NCBI GenBank assembly: GCA_025453925.1
Contig: JALOPK010000253.1
Span: forward strand, 1-5,277
Direction: 5' to 3'
From: Candidatus Eiseniibacteriota bacterium
GTDB lineage: Bacteria > JAFGKV01
Length of the DNA stretch: 5,277 nt
Shown here piece by piece: positions 465 through 5,277 of this stretch. Under the pieces are notes generated by a model. It was not told the DNA's origin and made no database searches. It saw only the letters and a list, made by a program, of their open reading frames with translations. How positions within the stretch are numbered: position 1 is the stretch's first letter; every line of letters starts with the position of its first letter. Made by a program: the position numbers and the translations under genes.

Positions 465-1889
465 TCAGGGCGCGATGACCTGGGTTCGGTTGAGGCCGCC
501 CCGGTCCAGCATCCTGCGGAGCCATATCCACGCCGCGTTCCGCCAGTCGATGCGAAGCCTGGGCAAGGTAGCGATGATCTTCGGGAGTTTCCGGGCATAG
601 AACCTGCGGTAGGCCTCGCGCTGCAGTCGGCGTAGTTCCTCGCCGCTCACAGCACTCAGGTTGAAGTACCCGGACAGGTAGTTGTACTCCCGGAAGTCGA
701 GGGAGGATGAGCCCCGCTCCCGCATAGTCTGCTCCCACAGCGGTGTGCCCGGGTACGGGGTCACGATGAAAAAGCTGGCGAAGTGCAAGTCGGTTTCCAC
801 CGCGTAGGTAATCGTACTCTCGATCTCATCCCTGGTCTCACCGGGGAAACCGAGCATGAAATACCCGTTCGTCACGATACCTTCCTCATCAAGCCACGAT
901 ATGGCCTCCTTGGCCCTCTCAAGGTCGAGGTGCTTGTGAATCACTTTCTGGAGCCGCGGGGATGCGGTTTCTATGGCAATGGCAAGGTTCGTCGTGCCGG
1001 CCTGTGCGAGCAGGGCAACCAACTCCCGGTCGAGGCGGTCAACGCGGACCCCGTTGGGGAAGGCGAGTTTCAGCCTCAAATCCAGGTCGATCAGTCCCCG
1101 GCATATGGCCTTGGCCCGGGCAAGGTCCATGTTGAAGATGTCGTCGTAGATCTCGATGTCAGTGATGCCGTAAGCCTCGTGAATACGGCGGACCTCTTCG
1201 ACGACGTTCTCGGTCGGCCTCGCTCGGAAGGACTTGCCAAACAGGTTGTGGCAGTAGAAGCACTGATAGGGGCATCCGCGCGAGGTGAAGACTGGGAGGA
1301 ATCGCCCGCGGCGGAGGTTCCCTGCGCGGCCCAGACGCGCATAGCGTTCCACGCTCACGAGATCCCAGGCCGGGAACGGCAGCTCGCCGAGATCCTCCAA
1401 AGGAGGCCGGGGAGGAGCCCATTCCACCCGTCCGTGCGCTCGAAGGCCCGTTCCCCTGATGCCGGCGGGAACCCCGTTTCCCGCGGCACAGGCGGACACG
1501 ATCGCGCAATAGGTCTCCTCGCCTTCGCCTATCACCATGACATCGATGTTGGTATTCCCGGCGACGTCGTCGGTGCATGCCGAGATATGTGGGCCCCCCA
1601 CGACGACCACGGTGTCCATTCGCCGGGCCTTCGCAATCCGCGCCGTCTCGTGGAGGCTGGCGGCCTCAGCGGTGAGTGCCGAGACGGCGACCATGTCCGG
1701 GTCGAAATCCTCCAGCACCGCGGCCAGCGATTCGAAGGGGTGACGTTCGCAGCGCAAATCGATGATCCTCTGGTCATGGCCCGGTTGGCGCTGGCGTAGG
1801 TACGCGGCGAGGTACATGAGCCCCAGCGGATACGAGAACTGCGGGACCTCTCGATTCAGCGAAGCGCCCTTTACAAGGAGTATTCGCAC
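465..1889 (-). CDS. B12-binding-domain radical SAM protein, 474 aa
   Basis: This is a complete cobalamin-type radical SAM enzyme, of the class that performs radical methylations, cyclisations or rearrangements using SAM and a [4Fe-4S] cluster in the cytoplasm. The N-terminal domain (about residues 1-160) has the Rossmann features of B12-binding domains: RILLVKG at the start, PLGLMYLAAYLR, VVVVGGPHIS (about 94-103) and GEGEET (about 121-126). The DxHxxG cobalamin motif is not visible; it is often missing in this group. The radical SAM barrel follows, with SRGCPYQCFYC giving cysteines 206, 210 and 213, then IEIYDD, AIAIETASP and YFMLGFPGET. The C-terminal tail is basic. The GTG at 1887-1889 was chosen because GAGGA lies 7 nt upstream and the homologous sequence starts there. 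An 18-codon extension to a GTG at 1941-1943 has no such support and overlaps a possible operator. The substrate is unknown. Confidence 0.93.
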   Translation of the reverse strand: MRILLVKGASLNREVPQFSYPLGLMYLAAYLRQRQPGHDQRIIDLRCERHPFESLAAVLEDFDPDMVAVSALTAEAASLHETARIAKARRMDTVVVVGGPHISACTDDVAGNTNIDVMVIGEGEETYCAIVSACAAGNGVPAGIRGTGLRAHGRVEWAPPRPPLEDLGELPFPAWDLVSVERYARLGRAGNLRRGRFLPVFTSRGCPYQCFYCHNLFGKSFRARPTENVVEEVRRIHEAYGITDIEIYDDIFNMDLARAKAICRGLIDLDLRLKLAFPNGVRVDRLDRELVALLAQAGTTNLAIAIETASPRLQKVIHKHLDLERAKEAISWLDEEGIVTNGYFMLGFPGETRDEIESTITYAVETDLHFASFFIVTPYPGTPLWEQTMRERGSSSLDFREYNYLSGYFNLSAVSGEELRRLQREAYRRFYARKLPKIIATLPRLRIDWRNAAWIWLRRMLDRGGLNRTQVIAP

Positions 1890-1896
1890 CGATGCA

Positions 1897-1901
1897 TCCT
1901 C
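1897..1901 (-). promoter_or_regulatory. Ribosome binding site that fixes the GTG start of the radical SAM gene
   Basis: On the minus strand GAGGA precedes the GTG start at 1889 by 7 nt. The ATG at 1926-1928 and the GTG at 1941-1943, both farther upstream in the same frame, have no comparable site. Confidence 0.7.
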
Positions 1902-1926
1902 GTGGCCGGAGAGTTGGGCAACACAC

Positions 1927-1946
1927 ATTGTGTATAGGGCCACAAT
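1927..1946 (-). promoter_or_regulatory. CRP/FNR-shaped inverted repeat upstream of the radical SAM gene
   Basis: ATTGTG (1927-1932), eight bases, then CACAAT (1941-1946) form a perfect inverted repeat. This fits the TGTG-N8-CACA layout bound by CRP/FNR-superfamily regulators (family knowledge). It lies 38-57 nt upstream of the GTG start of the minus-strand gene. On the minus strand it contains TATACA, which could act as a -10 box, although no good -35 lies 17-18 nt before it. Binding here would therefore probably overlap the core promoter. The regulator is unknown. Confidence 0.4.
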
Positions 1947-2074: not shown

Positions 2075-2307
2075 GTGATCGCCAGCACCCGGGGGGTGTG
2101 CTCCCGCAGGTTCGGCGTGAAACGGTTGCCGTGGCCGGGGCACGACGTGGGTGGCAGGCAGTTCACGTCGCCGCTCGACCGCAGCAGGCCAGGCTGCCAG
2201 GTCGGCCTCGGCAATGTTGCCCTTCAGTTCGCCACGCTCTCGACGGGGCTCATGGGATGGCCGGCGATCTCGCTGGACCCGGCGCTGATCGGTCTCTGGT
2301 TCGGTAG
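2075..2307 (+). pseudogene. Glycosyltransferase-like membrane protein, middle fragment (left of the IS)
   Basis: This open frame follows an in-frame TGA at 2063-2065 and is broken by the insertion sequence at 2308. About 78 residues remain. The right half, GNVALQFATLS followed by GLMGWPAISLDPALIGLWFG, is a membrane segment. Its pattern (N..L.F..LS.-L-GWP-hydrophobic) is familiar from GT-C/PMT-type glycosyltransferases of the dolichol-phosphate-mannosyltransferase kind. No credible start or N-terminal catalytic loop is present, so the 5' half of the gene has been lost. The GTG at 2075 is only the first possible start codon. The fragment continues after the IS in the same frame: joining the two parts gives GLWFGRRSPWSW and a 264-residue open frame. 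The first 20-30 codons, beside the direct repeats, may not belong to the original gene. Confidence 0.6.
2296..2307. repeat. Target-site duplication, left copy
   Basis: CTGGTTCGGTAG here is repeated exactly at 3786-3797 on the other side of the IS. The 12-bp length fits the longer duplications made by IS4-family elements. It sits within the glycosyltransferase codons for LWFG. Confidence 0.9.
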
Positions 2308-2312
2308 CAATG

Positions 2313-2328
2313 CTGTCCAAGAACGGTT
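2313..2328 (+). repeat. IS terminal inverted repeat, left
   Basis: CTGTCCAAGAACGGTT matches the reverse complement of the right end with one mismatch. This is the end lying downstream of the transposase stop. Confidence 0.9.
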
Positions 2329-2381
2329 GGGAGCAGTGGTTTTGGACGGGGGATGGCCTTGTGAGGGCAGGACAGGGGTGT

Positions 2382-2403
2382 AGGGGGTGAAGAAGGACCC
2401 CCT
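2382..2403 (-). terminator. Possible transposase terminator hairpin
   Basis: AGGGGGT (2382-2388) and ACCCCCT (2397-2403) form a perfect 7-bp, GC-rich stem with an 8-nt loop. It begins 7 nt after the transposase stop codon in the direction of transcription. No T tract follows on the minus strand, so if it terminates it is not a textbook intrinsic terminator. Confidence 0.4.
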
Positions 2404-2410
2404 TGTCAGG

Positions 2411-3607
2411 TCAGGCATGGTTGGTTTCAAGTCGGATGCTGTCCAAGAAGGGGAAAAGGAGCTGGTCAGCGGCAGGGAGAGGGGGGACGCCGAAGGGGTC
2501 ATTGAGCCAGGACCAGAGGTGGCGGTAGGAGAAGAGATTCCAGTGGAGGAGGGCGACGAGGTTGGAGAAGGACCAGGCGAGGCGTGCGGAGAACTGCAGG
2601 TACTTGACCAGGAGGATGGCGATCAATGCAGCCCAGATCTGGATGCGCAATGCGTTGTCAGAGGTACCCACGAAGGTCTTCACCTTGAGGTTCTGCTTGA
2701 GGGTACGGAAGAAGACCTCGATCTCCCATCGGTCCTTGTAAATGGCCGCAATGGTGGTGGCACCGAAGGTGAGATGATTGGTGAGGAGGACGATCTCTTC
2801 CTCCTTCGTGGGATCCCACACGACGATACGGCGGAGGGTGACGGGACACGCCGCACGAGATGTCTCGCCGGTGAACCGGATGAGCTGGTCCGCGATGATG
2901 TGGCGGTGTTTTGGAAGGGGCCATGAGCCGACGACCTGATAGGCAGCGTTGTGCTTCTGTCTGGTGACGAACCAGACCTTGGCGGTGTGCCAGGCGTAGA
3001 AGAGGGCATAGTCGGTGAAGCCACGATCCACGACGACGATGCTGCCGGGAGGGAGGGGGAGCCGACGAGCGACAGTGATTTCATGGACCTTGCCGGTGGT
3101 GAGATGGACAAAGGTGGGGAGATAGCCGTCATGATCCAGCAGCAGGTGGAGCTTCACGGCTCCCTTGGTCTGTCGAAATGTGGCCCAGGGGAACATGGCC
3201 AGACACAGATCGATGACGGTGGCGTCCAAGCTGAGCAGTTTGTTGCGGAACCGGAAGCGTCGCTTCTTGCCCTTCGACACGGCACGGCAGCGCTCCAAGA
3301 GCTGATAGAAGGTGGCTTCATAGAGTTGCCAGGGGCGATGGGCGTTGGCATAGGAGAGGGTGGAACGCTTCGGTCCTTTGGCGATACCGAGGTGGTTCAG
3401 CTTGCCGAGGCAGCAGTGGAGGCCATCGCAGATCTCGCGCAACGACTTCGCCTGAGCGAGCTGGCAGAAGAGCATGGCAACGAACTGGTCCCACGAGCTG
3501 AAGCCCTTGGCGTACCGATCAGACCGCAGCTCATGACAGGCACGAGCGAAGTGGTGCTTGGAGATGAGCGCAAGTATTTGACTGAAGAGGCTGGTTGGGT
3601 GTAGCAT
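2411..3607 (-). CDS. IS4-family DDE transposase, 398 aa
   Basis: The enzyme cuts and rejoins the IS ends to move the element. The N-terminal part (about 1-75, MLHPTSLFSQILALISKHHF onward) resembles the DUF4372 domain found in many IS4 transposases. The RNase-H-like catalytic core follows: first aspartate D128 in SLDAT, second aspartate D194 in VVVDRGFTDY, and glutamate E297 within the YREK signature Y290-x2-R293-x3-E297-x6-K304. All catalytic residues are present and the frame is unbroken, so the protein is probably active. The C-terminus (about 325-370) is rich in hydrophobic and aromatic residues and ends LLFPFLDSIRLETNHA. The ATG at 3605-3607 was chosen because AAGGAG lies 9 nt upstream. 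That ribosome binding site can be paired with an upstream complementary stretch. Long open frames on the opposite strand are shadows of this gene. Confidence 0.95.
   Translation of the reverse strand: MLHPTSLFSQILALISKHHFARACHELRSDRYAKGFSSWDQFVAMLFCQLAQAKSLREICDGLHCCLGKLNHLGIAKGPKRSTLSYANAHRPWQLYEATFYQLLERCRAVSKGKKRRFRFRNKLLSLDATVIDLCLAMFPWATFRQTKGAVKLHLLLDHDGYLPTFVHLTTGKVHEITVARRLPLPPGSIVVVDRGFTDYALFYAWHTAKVWFVTRQKHNAAYQVVGSWPLPKHRHIIADQLIRFTGETSRAACPVTLRRIVVWDPTKEEEIVLLTNHLTFGATTIAAIYKDRWEIEVFFRTLKQNLKVKTFVGTSDNALRIQIWAALIAILLVKYLQFSARLAWSFSNLVALLHWNLFSYRHLWSWLNDPFGVPPLPAADQLLFPFLDSIRLETNHA
2436..2449 (+). repeat. Internal copy of the IS left end inside the transposase gene
   Basis: ATGCTGTCCAAGAA is identical to 2310-2323 across the left tip of the element apart from position, and lies in the same orientation. 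It encodes part of FLDSI at the transposase C-terminus. It could be a subterminal transposase-binding site or a second usable end. Confidence 0.6.
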
Positions 3608-3612
3608 GGGGC

Positions 3613-3680
3613 GTCACTCCTTCTGCGGGTGCTCCAATGGTTTTCGATGACCCATCGAAGCAACTCAAAGGAGGAGTGAC
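3613..3680 (-). promoter_or_regulatory. Hairpin able to mask the transposase ribosome binding site
   Basis: On the minus-strand transcript GUCACUCCU (from 3680-3672) is perfectly complementary to AGGAGUGAC (from 3621-3613), which contains the AGGAG of the transposase Shine-Dalgarno site. Between them TTCGATG/CATCGAA (3643-3649 and 3653-3659) forms a 7-bp hairpin with a 3-nt loop, so the outer stem can close easily. Transcripts entering the IS from outside would carry both arms and be poorly translated. IS10 and IS50, also IS4-group elements, use this kind of read-through protection. A TTGAGT at 3668-3663 is a possible -35 of an internal promoter whose transcript would lack the upstream arm. 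Confidence 0.6.
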
Positions 3681-3767
3681 CTTCCATCCCCCGCATATCC
3701 CTTTCCCCCTCCAACCACCTTCCCAACCGCAGCCCGCGCCCCCCGTGCTCACCTACCATCAGCCCAG

Positions 3768-3783
3768 AACCGATCTTGGACAG
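3768..3783 (-). repeat. IS terminal inverted repeat, right
   Basis: Read on the minus strand this is CTGTCCAAGATCGGTT, matching the left end at 15 of 16 bases. This is the end upstream of the transposase gene. Confidence 0.9.
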
Positions 3784-3785
3784 GC

Positions 3786-3797
3786 CTGGTTCGGTAG
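3786..3797. repeat. Target-site duplication, right copy
   Basis: CTGGTTCGGTAG is an exact repeat of 2296-2307 and marks the right boundary of the insertion. Confidence 0.9.
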
Positions 3798-4628: not shown

Positions 4629-5277
4629 TTGCCGAGTAAACGCCTCTCCTGTGTTCTCGCGATGCCGGCGTGGTCGCACACGCAGTCCCACCCAACGGCG
4701 CTTCGGAGGCTCGGCACCGGCTTCTGGACTCCGATCAGTCTCCTCTACCCTGCGGCGCGAGTCCGCCGCGACCATGATGTCCGAGTTCTCGACGGGGGCT
4801 TCTACACTCCCGACGGCCTCATGCACACCATCGCCTCGCTGAAGCCCGATGTAGTCGGCTTCTACTGCAGCACGGTCTTGTGGAACATCTCCCGCGAACA
4901 GATCGCTGCCTGTCGGCGTCTCCTGCCGGATGCCCACATCACGGTGGGAGGCCCCCTTCCGACCGTGATCAAGCAGGAGTATCTGGAGCACTCCCCCGAG
5001 TGTGATTCCGTCGTCGTGGGCGAGGGAGAAGAGACGCTGGCCGCCCTCCTAGACCGCGTCGCGGACGGCGAATCCCTCGAGGGCGTCGCCGGGACCGTCT
5101 ATCGTCGCAACGGCGAGATCATCGAGAACCCCCCGCGACCGTTTATCAACGACCTCGACAGCCTCCCCAGTCCCGCCTGGGATCTCATAAACGTGAGGGA
5201 CTATACGCCTCCCATCGGGCTCTACACCAAGAAGCCAGTGGTGACCGGGCTCACATCGCGCGGGTGTCATCACCGCT
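4629..5277 (+). CDS. B12-binding-domain radical SAM protein, N-terminal part (3' end outside window)
   Basis: The frame opens after a TGA at 4608-4610 and runs off the right edge, giving 216 residues. It has a B12-binding-type domain: RLSCVLAMPAW as first strand, PISLLYPAARVRRDHDVRVLDGG (end at about residue 57), PDVVGFYCST, TVGGP (about 105-109) and VVVGEGEE (to about 135). The linker PSPAWDLINVRDY and TGLTSRGC lead into the radical SAM core. The first iron-sulfur cysteine is C213, and the next codon after R216 begins with T, as expected for the second cysteine of CxxxCxxC. No DxHxxG motif is seen. The TTG at 4629 gives MPSKRLSCVLAMP and has GAGGA 5 nt upstream; the ATG at 4662 would delete the first strand. 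The domain order matches the minus-strand gene at 465-1889, but the sequences differ enough to be separate enzymes. The substrate is unknown. Confidence 0.88.
   Translation, partial: MPSKRLSCVLAMPAWSHTQSHPTALRRLGTGFWTPISLLYPAARVRRDHDVRVLDGGFYTPDGLMHTIASLKPDVVGFYCSTVLWNISREQIAACRRLLPDAHITVGGPLPTVIKQEYLEHSPECDSVVVGEGEETLAALLDRVADGESLEGVAGTVYRRNGEIIENPPRPFINDLDSLPSPAWDLINVRDYTPPIGLYTKKPVVTGLTSRGCHHR

Follow-up and report, generated by a model that had tools for sequence, protein, structure and literature searches.

Comparative analysis of an insertion sequence (IS) carried by a bacterium of the Candidatus Eiseniibacteriota suggests that a distant branch of the IS4 family controls its transposase in an IS10-like, double manner, a reading to which we assign a probability of roughly 0.7. 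An antisense promoter would lie inside the first ten codons of the transposase gene, with the complement of AGT CAA as its −35, the complement of ATG-NTA as its −10 and an 18-bp spacer. The predicted antisense RNA, roughly 70 nt long, would start at the base of an inverted repeat, fold as a stem-loop and pair with the transposase mRNA around its translation start. The repeat would have a second role in transcripts that originate outside the element and run into it: folded in the sense RNA, it would hide the Shine-Dalgarno (SD) site. The element's own mRNA would start between the arms of the repeat and stay translatable. What comparison of related sequences establishes is the repeat and the codon constraint; that both RNAs are made, pair with each other and repress is what we infer from them.

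Placement of the element within the IS4 family

The element is intact, 1481 bp long and located at positions 2308..3788 (minus strand; left end CAATGCTGTCCAAGAACGGTT, right end, in reverse complement, CAGGCCTGTCCAAGATCGGTT) of the 5,277-nucleotide stretch of DNA analyzed here, hereafter the window. It is bordered by two copies of a 9-bp target-site duplication, GTTCGGTAG on the left (2299..2307) and GTTCGGTAG on the right (3789..3797), and encodes an IS4-family transposase of 398 aa (DUF4372 + DDE_Tnp_1; 2411..3607, minus strand, ATG at 3607). The transposase matches NCBIfam NF033592 with 264 bits against a cutoff of 115, and its ORF (3607-2411) is present in a single copy in the source draft genome. 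In an alignment of 15 transposases, the YREK residues Y290, R293, E297 and K304 are invariant, as are D128 and D194. IS4-family elements generate target duplications of ~10 bp (PMC2266710), with which the 9 bp of the window agree, and subgroup IS4Sa is delineated by ends of the form CA------T, a size of 1150-1750 bp and a duplication of 8-10 bp (PMC2266710). The element displays all three (CAATGCTGT / CAGGCCTGT, 1481 bp, 9 bp). Its CA...CTGTCCAAGA termini, together with the 9-bp duplication and the YREK signature, are, as far as sequence features go, the published features of IS4Sa. The sequence-only reading that preceded this work had assigned the element to a different branch from IS10 and IS50, and rightly so: the ends are 5'-CT in IS10 and 5'-CA here.

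An extra copy of the terminal-repeat core TGTCCAAGA is found at 2436-2452, in addition to the terminal copy at 2311-2327, ~126 bp inward from the IS end 3' of the transposase gene and within the end of that gene. About half of the relatives checked have such an inner copy at ~103-135 bp from this end (L002, L008, L009, L012, L015, L018, L020, L028 and L068), and its conservation suggests a putative second transposase binding site. The IS is flanked by two genes resembling those for B12-binding radical SAM proteins, one at 465-1943 (minus strand), called by Pfam, and the other at about 4660-5277 (plus strand), truncated at the contig end and called by eye.

An inverted repeat covers the Shine-Dalgarno site

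It had been noted from the sequence that a perfect 9-bp complement of the SD-containing site lies upstream of it, at a distance of 50 nt. Both statements hold: on the minus strand, the 5' arm GTCACTCCT (3680-3672) pairs with the 3' arm AGGAGTGAC (3621-3613), with 50 nt between them, and the 3' arm overlaps the AAGGAG SD, 6-14 nt upstream of the ATG at 3607. Around these perfect cores (3672-3680 and 3613-3621), the helix grows to 12 positions, the 5' arm GTCACTCCTCCT occupying 3669..3680 and the 3' arm AGAAGGAGTGAC, with AAGGAG, 3613..3624 (both minus strand); the single C-A mismatch becomes a G-U pair on the opposite strand. The region between the arms (3625..3668, minus strand) holds an inner hairpin, as well as, in the relatives, a sense −10-like site of which the window has no convincing version. 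The 7-bp inner hairpin proposed earlier, TTCGATG/CATCGAA, is indeed present in the sequence, but the minimum-energy fold prefers an overlapping 11-bp helix, TGCTTCGATGG/CCATTGGAGCA.

The predicted fold of the arms region (3680->3613) has an energy of −33.0 kcal/mol (z −5.7) and that of 3690->3600 an energy of −42.2 kcal/mol (z −4.7). When the whole leader is folded from 3783, z is only −1.4 and the 5' arm re-pairs with a G-rich stretch upstream, but access to the SD remains blocked. Folding of the minus-strand RNA with and without the upstream arm, a check suggested by the sequence-only reading, yielded the anticipated difference: in the predicted ensemble, the SD is unpaired with a probability of 0.01 when the arm is included and of 0.43 in an mRNA starting at −36. 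In the predicted folds, the paired arms thus hide the translation start, as in read-through protection of the IS10/IS50 type. No T-run follows the sense hairpin, and a sense-strand terminator was rejected on this ground. An Rfam search with the window and five relatives returned no match at E<=1.

Taken as a single case, the window is notable, not extreme. Its helix score of 25.5 was reached by none of the 47 SD-bearing genes on 20 contigs of the same genome (mean 16.7, sd 3.2), and in a duplex test against shuffled sequences, the window alone gave a p of 0.08. The latter value would suit a chance complementarity to a purine-rich SD in one GC-rich element, an explanation that is refuted by comparison with the relatives, where both the same duplex test and the strong covariation described below speak against it, leaving it a virtually nil probability. 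It is the comparative evidence that carries the case.

Arm sequences vary among relatives while complementarity is kept

Through one genome scan and whole-genome searches, we collected 86 distinct elements with leader sequence. These relatives span several phyla, and their transposases are roughly 50-65% identical; the closest in the searched set, L019/L040, from the same genus and titled Candidatus Fermentibacteria, shares 67-68% identity. This L019/L040 copy is broken, with in-frame stop codons and a cut at the contig end, yet a 12-bp version of the arms is kept.

In a close group of 32 elements, pairing of the SD region with the element's own upstream region averages −25.1 kcal/mol, against −13.5 kcal/mol when upstream regions are swapped between elements, and 91% of the group have p<=0.05 against shuffles in the duplex test. 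Elements within a clade are non-independent, which makes the P values given here for the set of relatives too small. In an SD-anchored alignment of 23 elements, 82.6% of the cells are paired, compared with 65% in shuffled alignments and at most 53% when the arms are slid; double changes occur in 8 of 11 pairs, with 45 double-change cells against 13.9 in shuffles and at most 17 upon sliding, and the covariation score is 0.443 versus 0.125, all of these numbers being inflated, since the register of the 5' arm was picked by pairing. The swap test searches equally both ways and is free of this bias.

The variety of the arms is illustrated by the pairs GTCACTCCT/AGGAGTGAC, GCCCTCCT/AGGAGGGC, GAATTCTCCTT/AAGGAGAATTC and TGTCCTCC/GGAGGACA. 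One genome carries two paralogs, L002 and L068, whose CDSs share 78% identity; through a double change, their outer pair is A-T in one and G-C in the other, with the stretch between the arms almost unchanged. The strong outer helix is absent in L006 and a few others. Across the group, however, the sequence varies and complementarity is kept, which is the outcome that the sequence-only reading had looked for in relatives when it suggested checking them for compensatory changes. The same pattern bears on the idea of a DNA operator, to which the transposase or a protein of the host would bind. An inverted repeat close to a promoter often proves to be an operator, but here the arm sequences differ freely among similar transposases (GTCACTCC, GCCCTCCT, GAATTCTCC, TAGAGGCT) with complementarity kept, and the half-sites would lie ~50 nt apart. 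With no arm sequence shared, we rejected the operator, which is very improbable.

A search of viral contigs uncovered no relatives, and one of plasmid DNA just a short Polaromonas match. Two plasmid-borne relatives, L134 (Acinetobacter sp. WCHA45) and L133 (Pseudodesulfovibrio profundus), both from cultured hosts, have the same kind of arms (AAAAAAACCTGAGTC...GACTCAGGTT; GTCCGAA...TTCGGAC), the 5' arm being preceded by an A-rich run. In the duplex test, the long-range arm geometry does not hold for the distant MNxGK clade, which is excluded from the antisense claim. By eye, members of this clade (L126-L129, L042, L098 and L135; ISRm16; MNxGK start) have a different, shorter SD hairpin, e.g., GCCATTC ... 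GAATGGC. Hiding of the start region may thus be more general, with another geometry in the distant clade.

A putative sense promoter lies between the arms in relatives

The relatives carry a sense −10-like site, often with an extended TG, mostly 7-9 nt past the 5' arm, a position of about −46 to −49 relative to the start codon (TGnTATAAT in L014, L084, L089 and L090). Such sites are enriched in the loops over shuffled loops (mean z 1.18, P 2e-4); in the same loop scan, the window's own sense −10 is no better than chance (p 0.54). Because the −10-like site sits between the arms, the relatives' own mRNA should lack the 5' arm: it would initiate ~7 nt after the site. Predicted SD accessibility averages 0.14 with the 5' arm and 0.45 without it, with this direction in 29 of 33 elements. 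That only read-through transcripts contain both arms would follow from the −10-like sites of the relatives, and for the window, whose own sense promoter is not identifiable, it is carried over from them. The read-through protection proposed at the outset finds partial support in the covariation, the −10 positions and the SD accessibility, but that proposal missed an antisense layer, and the arms may serve an antisense RNA equally or more.

A candidate antisense promoter is written in the early codons

Near the arms, promoter scanning gave a single site, TTGACT-18-TAGCAT on the plus strand (3578-3607), only a 9/12 match. Its −35-like TTGACT (3578..3583, plus strand) is the complement of Ser9-Gln10, AGT CAA, and its −10-like TAGCAT (3602..3607, plus strand) is the reverse complement of ATG CTA, i.e., of the start codon and codon 2. 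Codon usage among the relatives is constrained at precisely these places. Codon 2 is NTA in 20 of the 20 elements with Leu, Val or Ile there, the window included, so that ATG-NTA places a −10 box, TANCAT, on the opposite strand. These NTA codons are rarely used in the genes concerned (0.009 in the window); the next best among 75 comparable columns reaches 0.41 and the mean is 0.12, and the P value computed from each gene's own usage is about 1.6e-19, for a test that was devised after the pattern had been seen. Gln10 is CAA in 20/20, compared with 0.22-0.43 in other Gln columns, and just ahead of it 18/20 have AGT, AAT or GGT (14% expected). Ser/Asn-Gln written as AGT/AAT-CAA, eighteen bases behind the antisense −10, gives TTGAYT as the −35. 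In two other clades, the antisense −10 lies a few codons deeper (TGCTAAACT; TGTTATAAT/TGCTACAAT), and the synonymous constraint is weaker yet concordant.

The predicted antisense RNA (3613..3692, plus strand) has its 5' end near 3613, a 12-bp stem formed by 3613-3624 and 3669-3680, and an undefined 3' end. The distance from the best antisense −10 to the stem base is 5-9 nt in 24 of 33 elements (permutation P <1e-4), which puts the base where transcription would be expected to start. The outer end of the 3' arm is at about −5 to −8 where the antisense −10 falls on the start codon and mostly at −3 to +1 where it lies deeper, a coupling of −10 and stem positions that rests on few clade-level states. 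The automatic −10 scan misfits about a quarter of the elements, including L074, for which it chose another hexamer; read by eye, L074 has one extra codon before the homologous NTA, and its arm ends at −3, compared with about −5 to −8.

In the 8 nt directly upstream of the 5' arm, A makes up 0.52 of the bases, against 0.27 at greater distance. Many of the antisense RNAs would accordingly carry a T-run past the stem, at their 3' end, and at least 5 T in the 9 nt after the antisense stem were found in 16/33 elements; the window has no T-run there. Near-pairs in the helices number 16 A-C and 4 G-U in the sense reading, some common to related elements, an excess that favors the antisense RNA as the folded molecule. 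The strand asymmetry of the folding energies was not significant (P 0.21).

These observations make the double control more likely than either half of it. If the arms did nothing but hide the SD in outside transcripts, and the promoter-like codons were non-functional, one would expect what is seen on the sense side: arms that coincide, in the close clades, with the SD or the start codon, −10 sites for the sense mRNA between the arms of relatives and an SD accessibility that depends on the 5' arm. Left unexplained, however, would be NTA in 20/20, CAA in 20/20, the coupling of stem base and −10, the T-rich antisense 3' flank and the excess of A-C over G-U, and we consider protection by itself quite unlikely. 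Conversely, the repeat could serve an antisense RNA alone, as its stem and terminator, and the sense hairpin would be the unavoidable mirror image, devoid of a role. The stem base following the antisense start and the 16:4 ratio of near-pairs in favor of the antisense strand are in keeping with this, but the sense RNA folds with about the same stability and its SD thereby becomes inaccessible, so that a read-through lock would follow even if unselected. IS10, moreover, reportedly uses one repeat for both functions, which we count against an exclusively antisense role; it has a small but real chance of being right. We thus favor double control for the group. In the window copy, neither a sense promoter nor an antisense terminator is visible, and self-regulation of this copy is putative.

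Comparison with known systems

As a control, we ran the same scan on the IS10 of an E. coli record, located there by a 100% match to an 86-nt query. The arms CACATCTTGT/ACAAGATGTG were found at −56 and at −5 to +4. The antisense −10, TAAAAT, precedes the stem base by 11 nt, and −10-like sites in the sense direction follow the 5' arm after 2-7 nt. This recomputed anatomy agrees with the published RNA-OUT of 69 nt, the first 35 nt of which are complementary to the translation initiation region (PMC5006887). The elements described here resemble the RNA-IN/RNA-OUT system of IS10 (Tn10) in the antisense −10 in early codons, the stem near the antisense start, the repeat over the translation start, the sense −10-like site just past the 5' arm and an antisense RNA, predicted in our case, of ~70 nt over the mRNA start. 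In our elements, the antisense promoter in early transposase codons is indicated by the codon signature and the −10/stem coupling, both read from sequence only. Unlike IS10, they belong to a distant IS4 branch with unrelated sequences. In the clade of the window, the 3' arm lies on the SD and the start codon is part of the antisense −10, whereas in IS10 the arm lies on the AUG (−5 to +4) and the −10 at about codons 6-7.

IS50 (Tn5), named along with IS10 in the sequence-only reading, is reported to hide its translation signals in outside transcripts. IS50 belongs to a different IS4 subgroup and is not known to have an antisense RNA of such kind. ISPpu9 (Asr9/Ssr9 RNAs) has a hairpin in the tnp 5'-UTR that lowers transposase translation, with involvement of an antisense RNA (PMC8450116); in contrast to the window element, it belongs to another family, IS110, and its antisense RNA is reported to aid translation, not to repress it (PMC8450116). 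In Sinorhizobium meliloti, deep sequencing revealed an antisense sRNA over the 5' end of the transposase TRm22 (PMC2873474), and ISRm22 is listed under subgroup IS4Sa (PMC2266710). If TRm22 is the ISRm22 transposase, this sRNA may provide independent, putative support for antisense RNA in IS4Sa. The S. meliloti matches turned out to be ISRm16 and not ISRm22, and thus gave no link between the TRm22 sRNA and the present geometry. The literature searched contains no account of such an arrangement for IS4Sa elements, an absence that is weak evidence.

Implications

Few elements have had their antisense control of transposition worked out in detail, and the layout of a repeat combined with an antisense promoter in early codons has so far been known from IS10. 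On balance, we lean toward a picture in which the start codon is part of the antisense −10, the promoter is written in synonymous codons among the first ten, and one repeat would act as antisense stem, terminator and read-through lock in an IS4 branch found in several phyla, with IS10 then being one member of an old and widespread scheme. The signature ATG-NTA ... AGT-CAA, together with a covarying repeat, predicts antisense control in elements from genomes titled as desulfobacteria, acidobacteria, Nitrospinota, Phycisphaerae and others. Codons of these transposases would thus be under a selection pressure unrelated to the protein, and the finding is relevant to the question of whether the IS4 family had control of the IS10 type from its origin.
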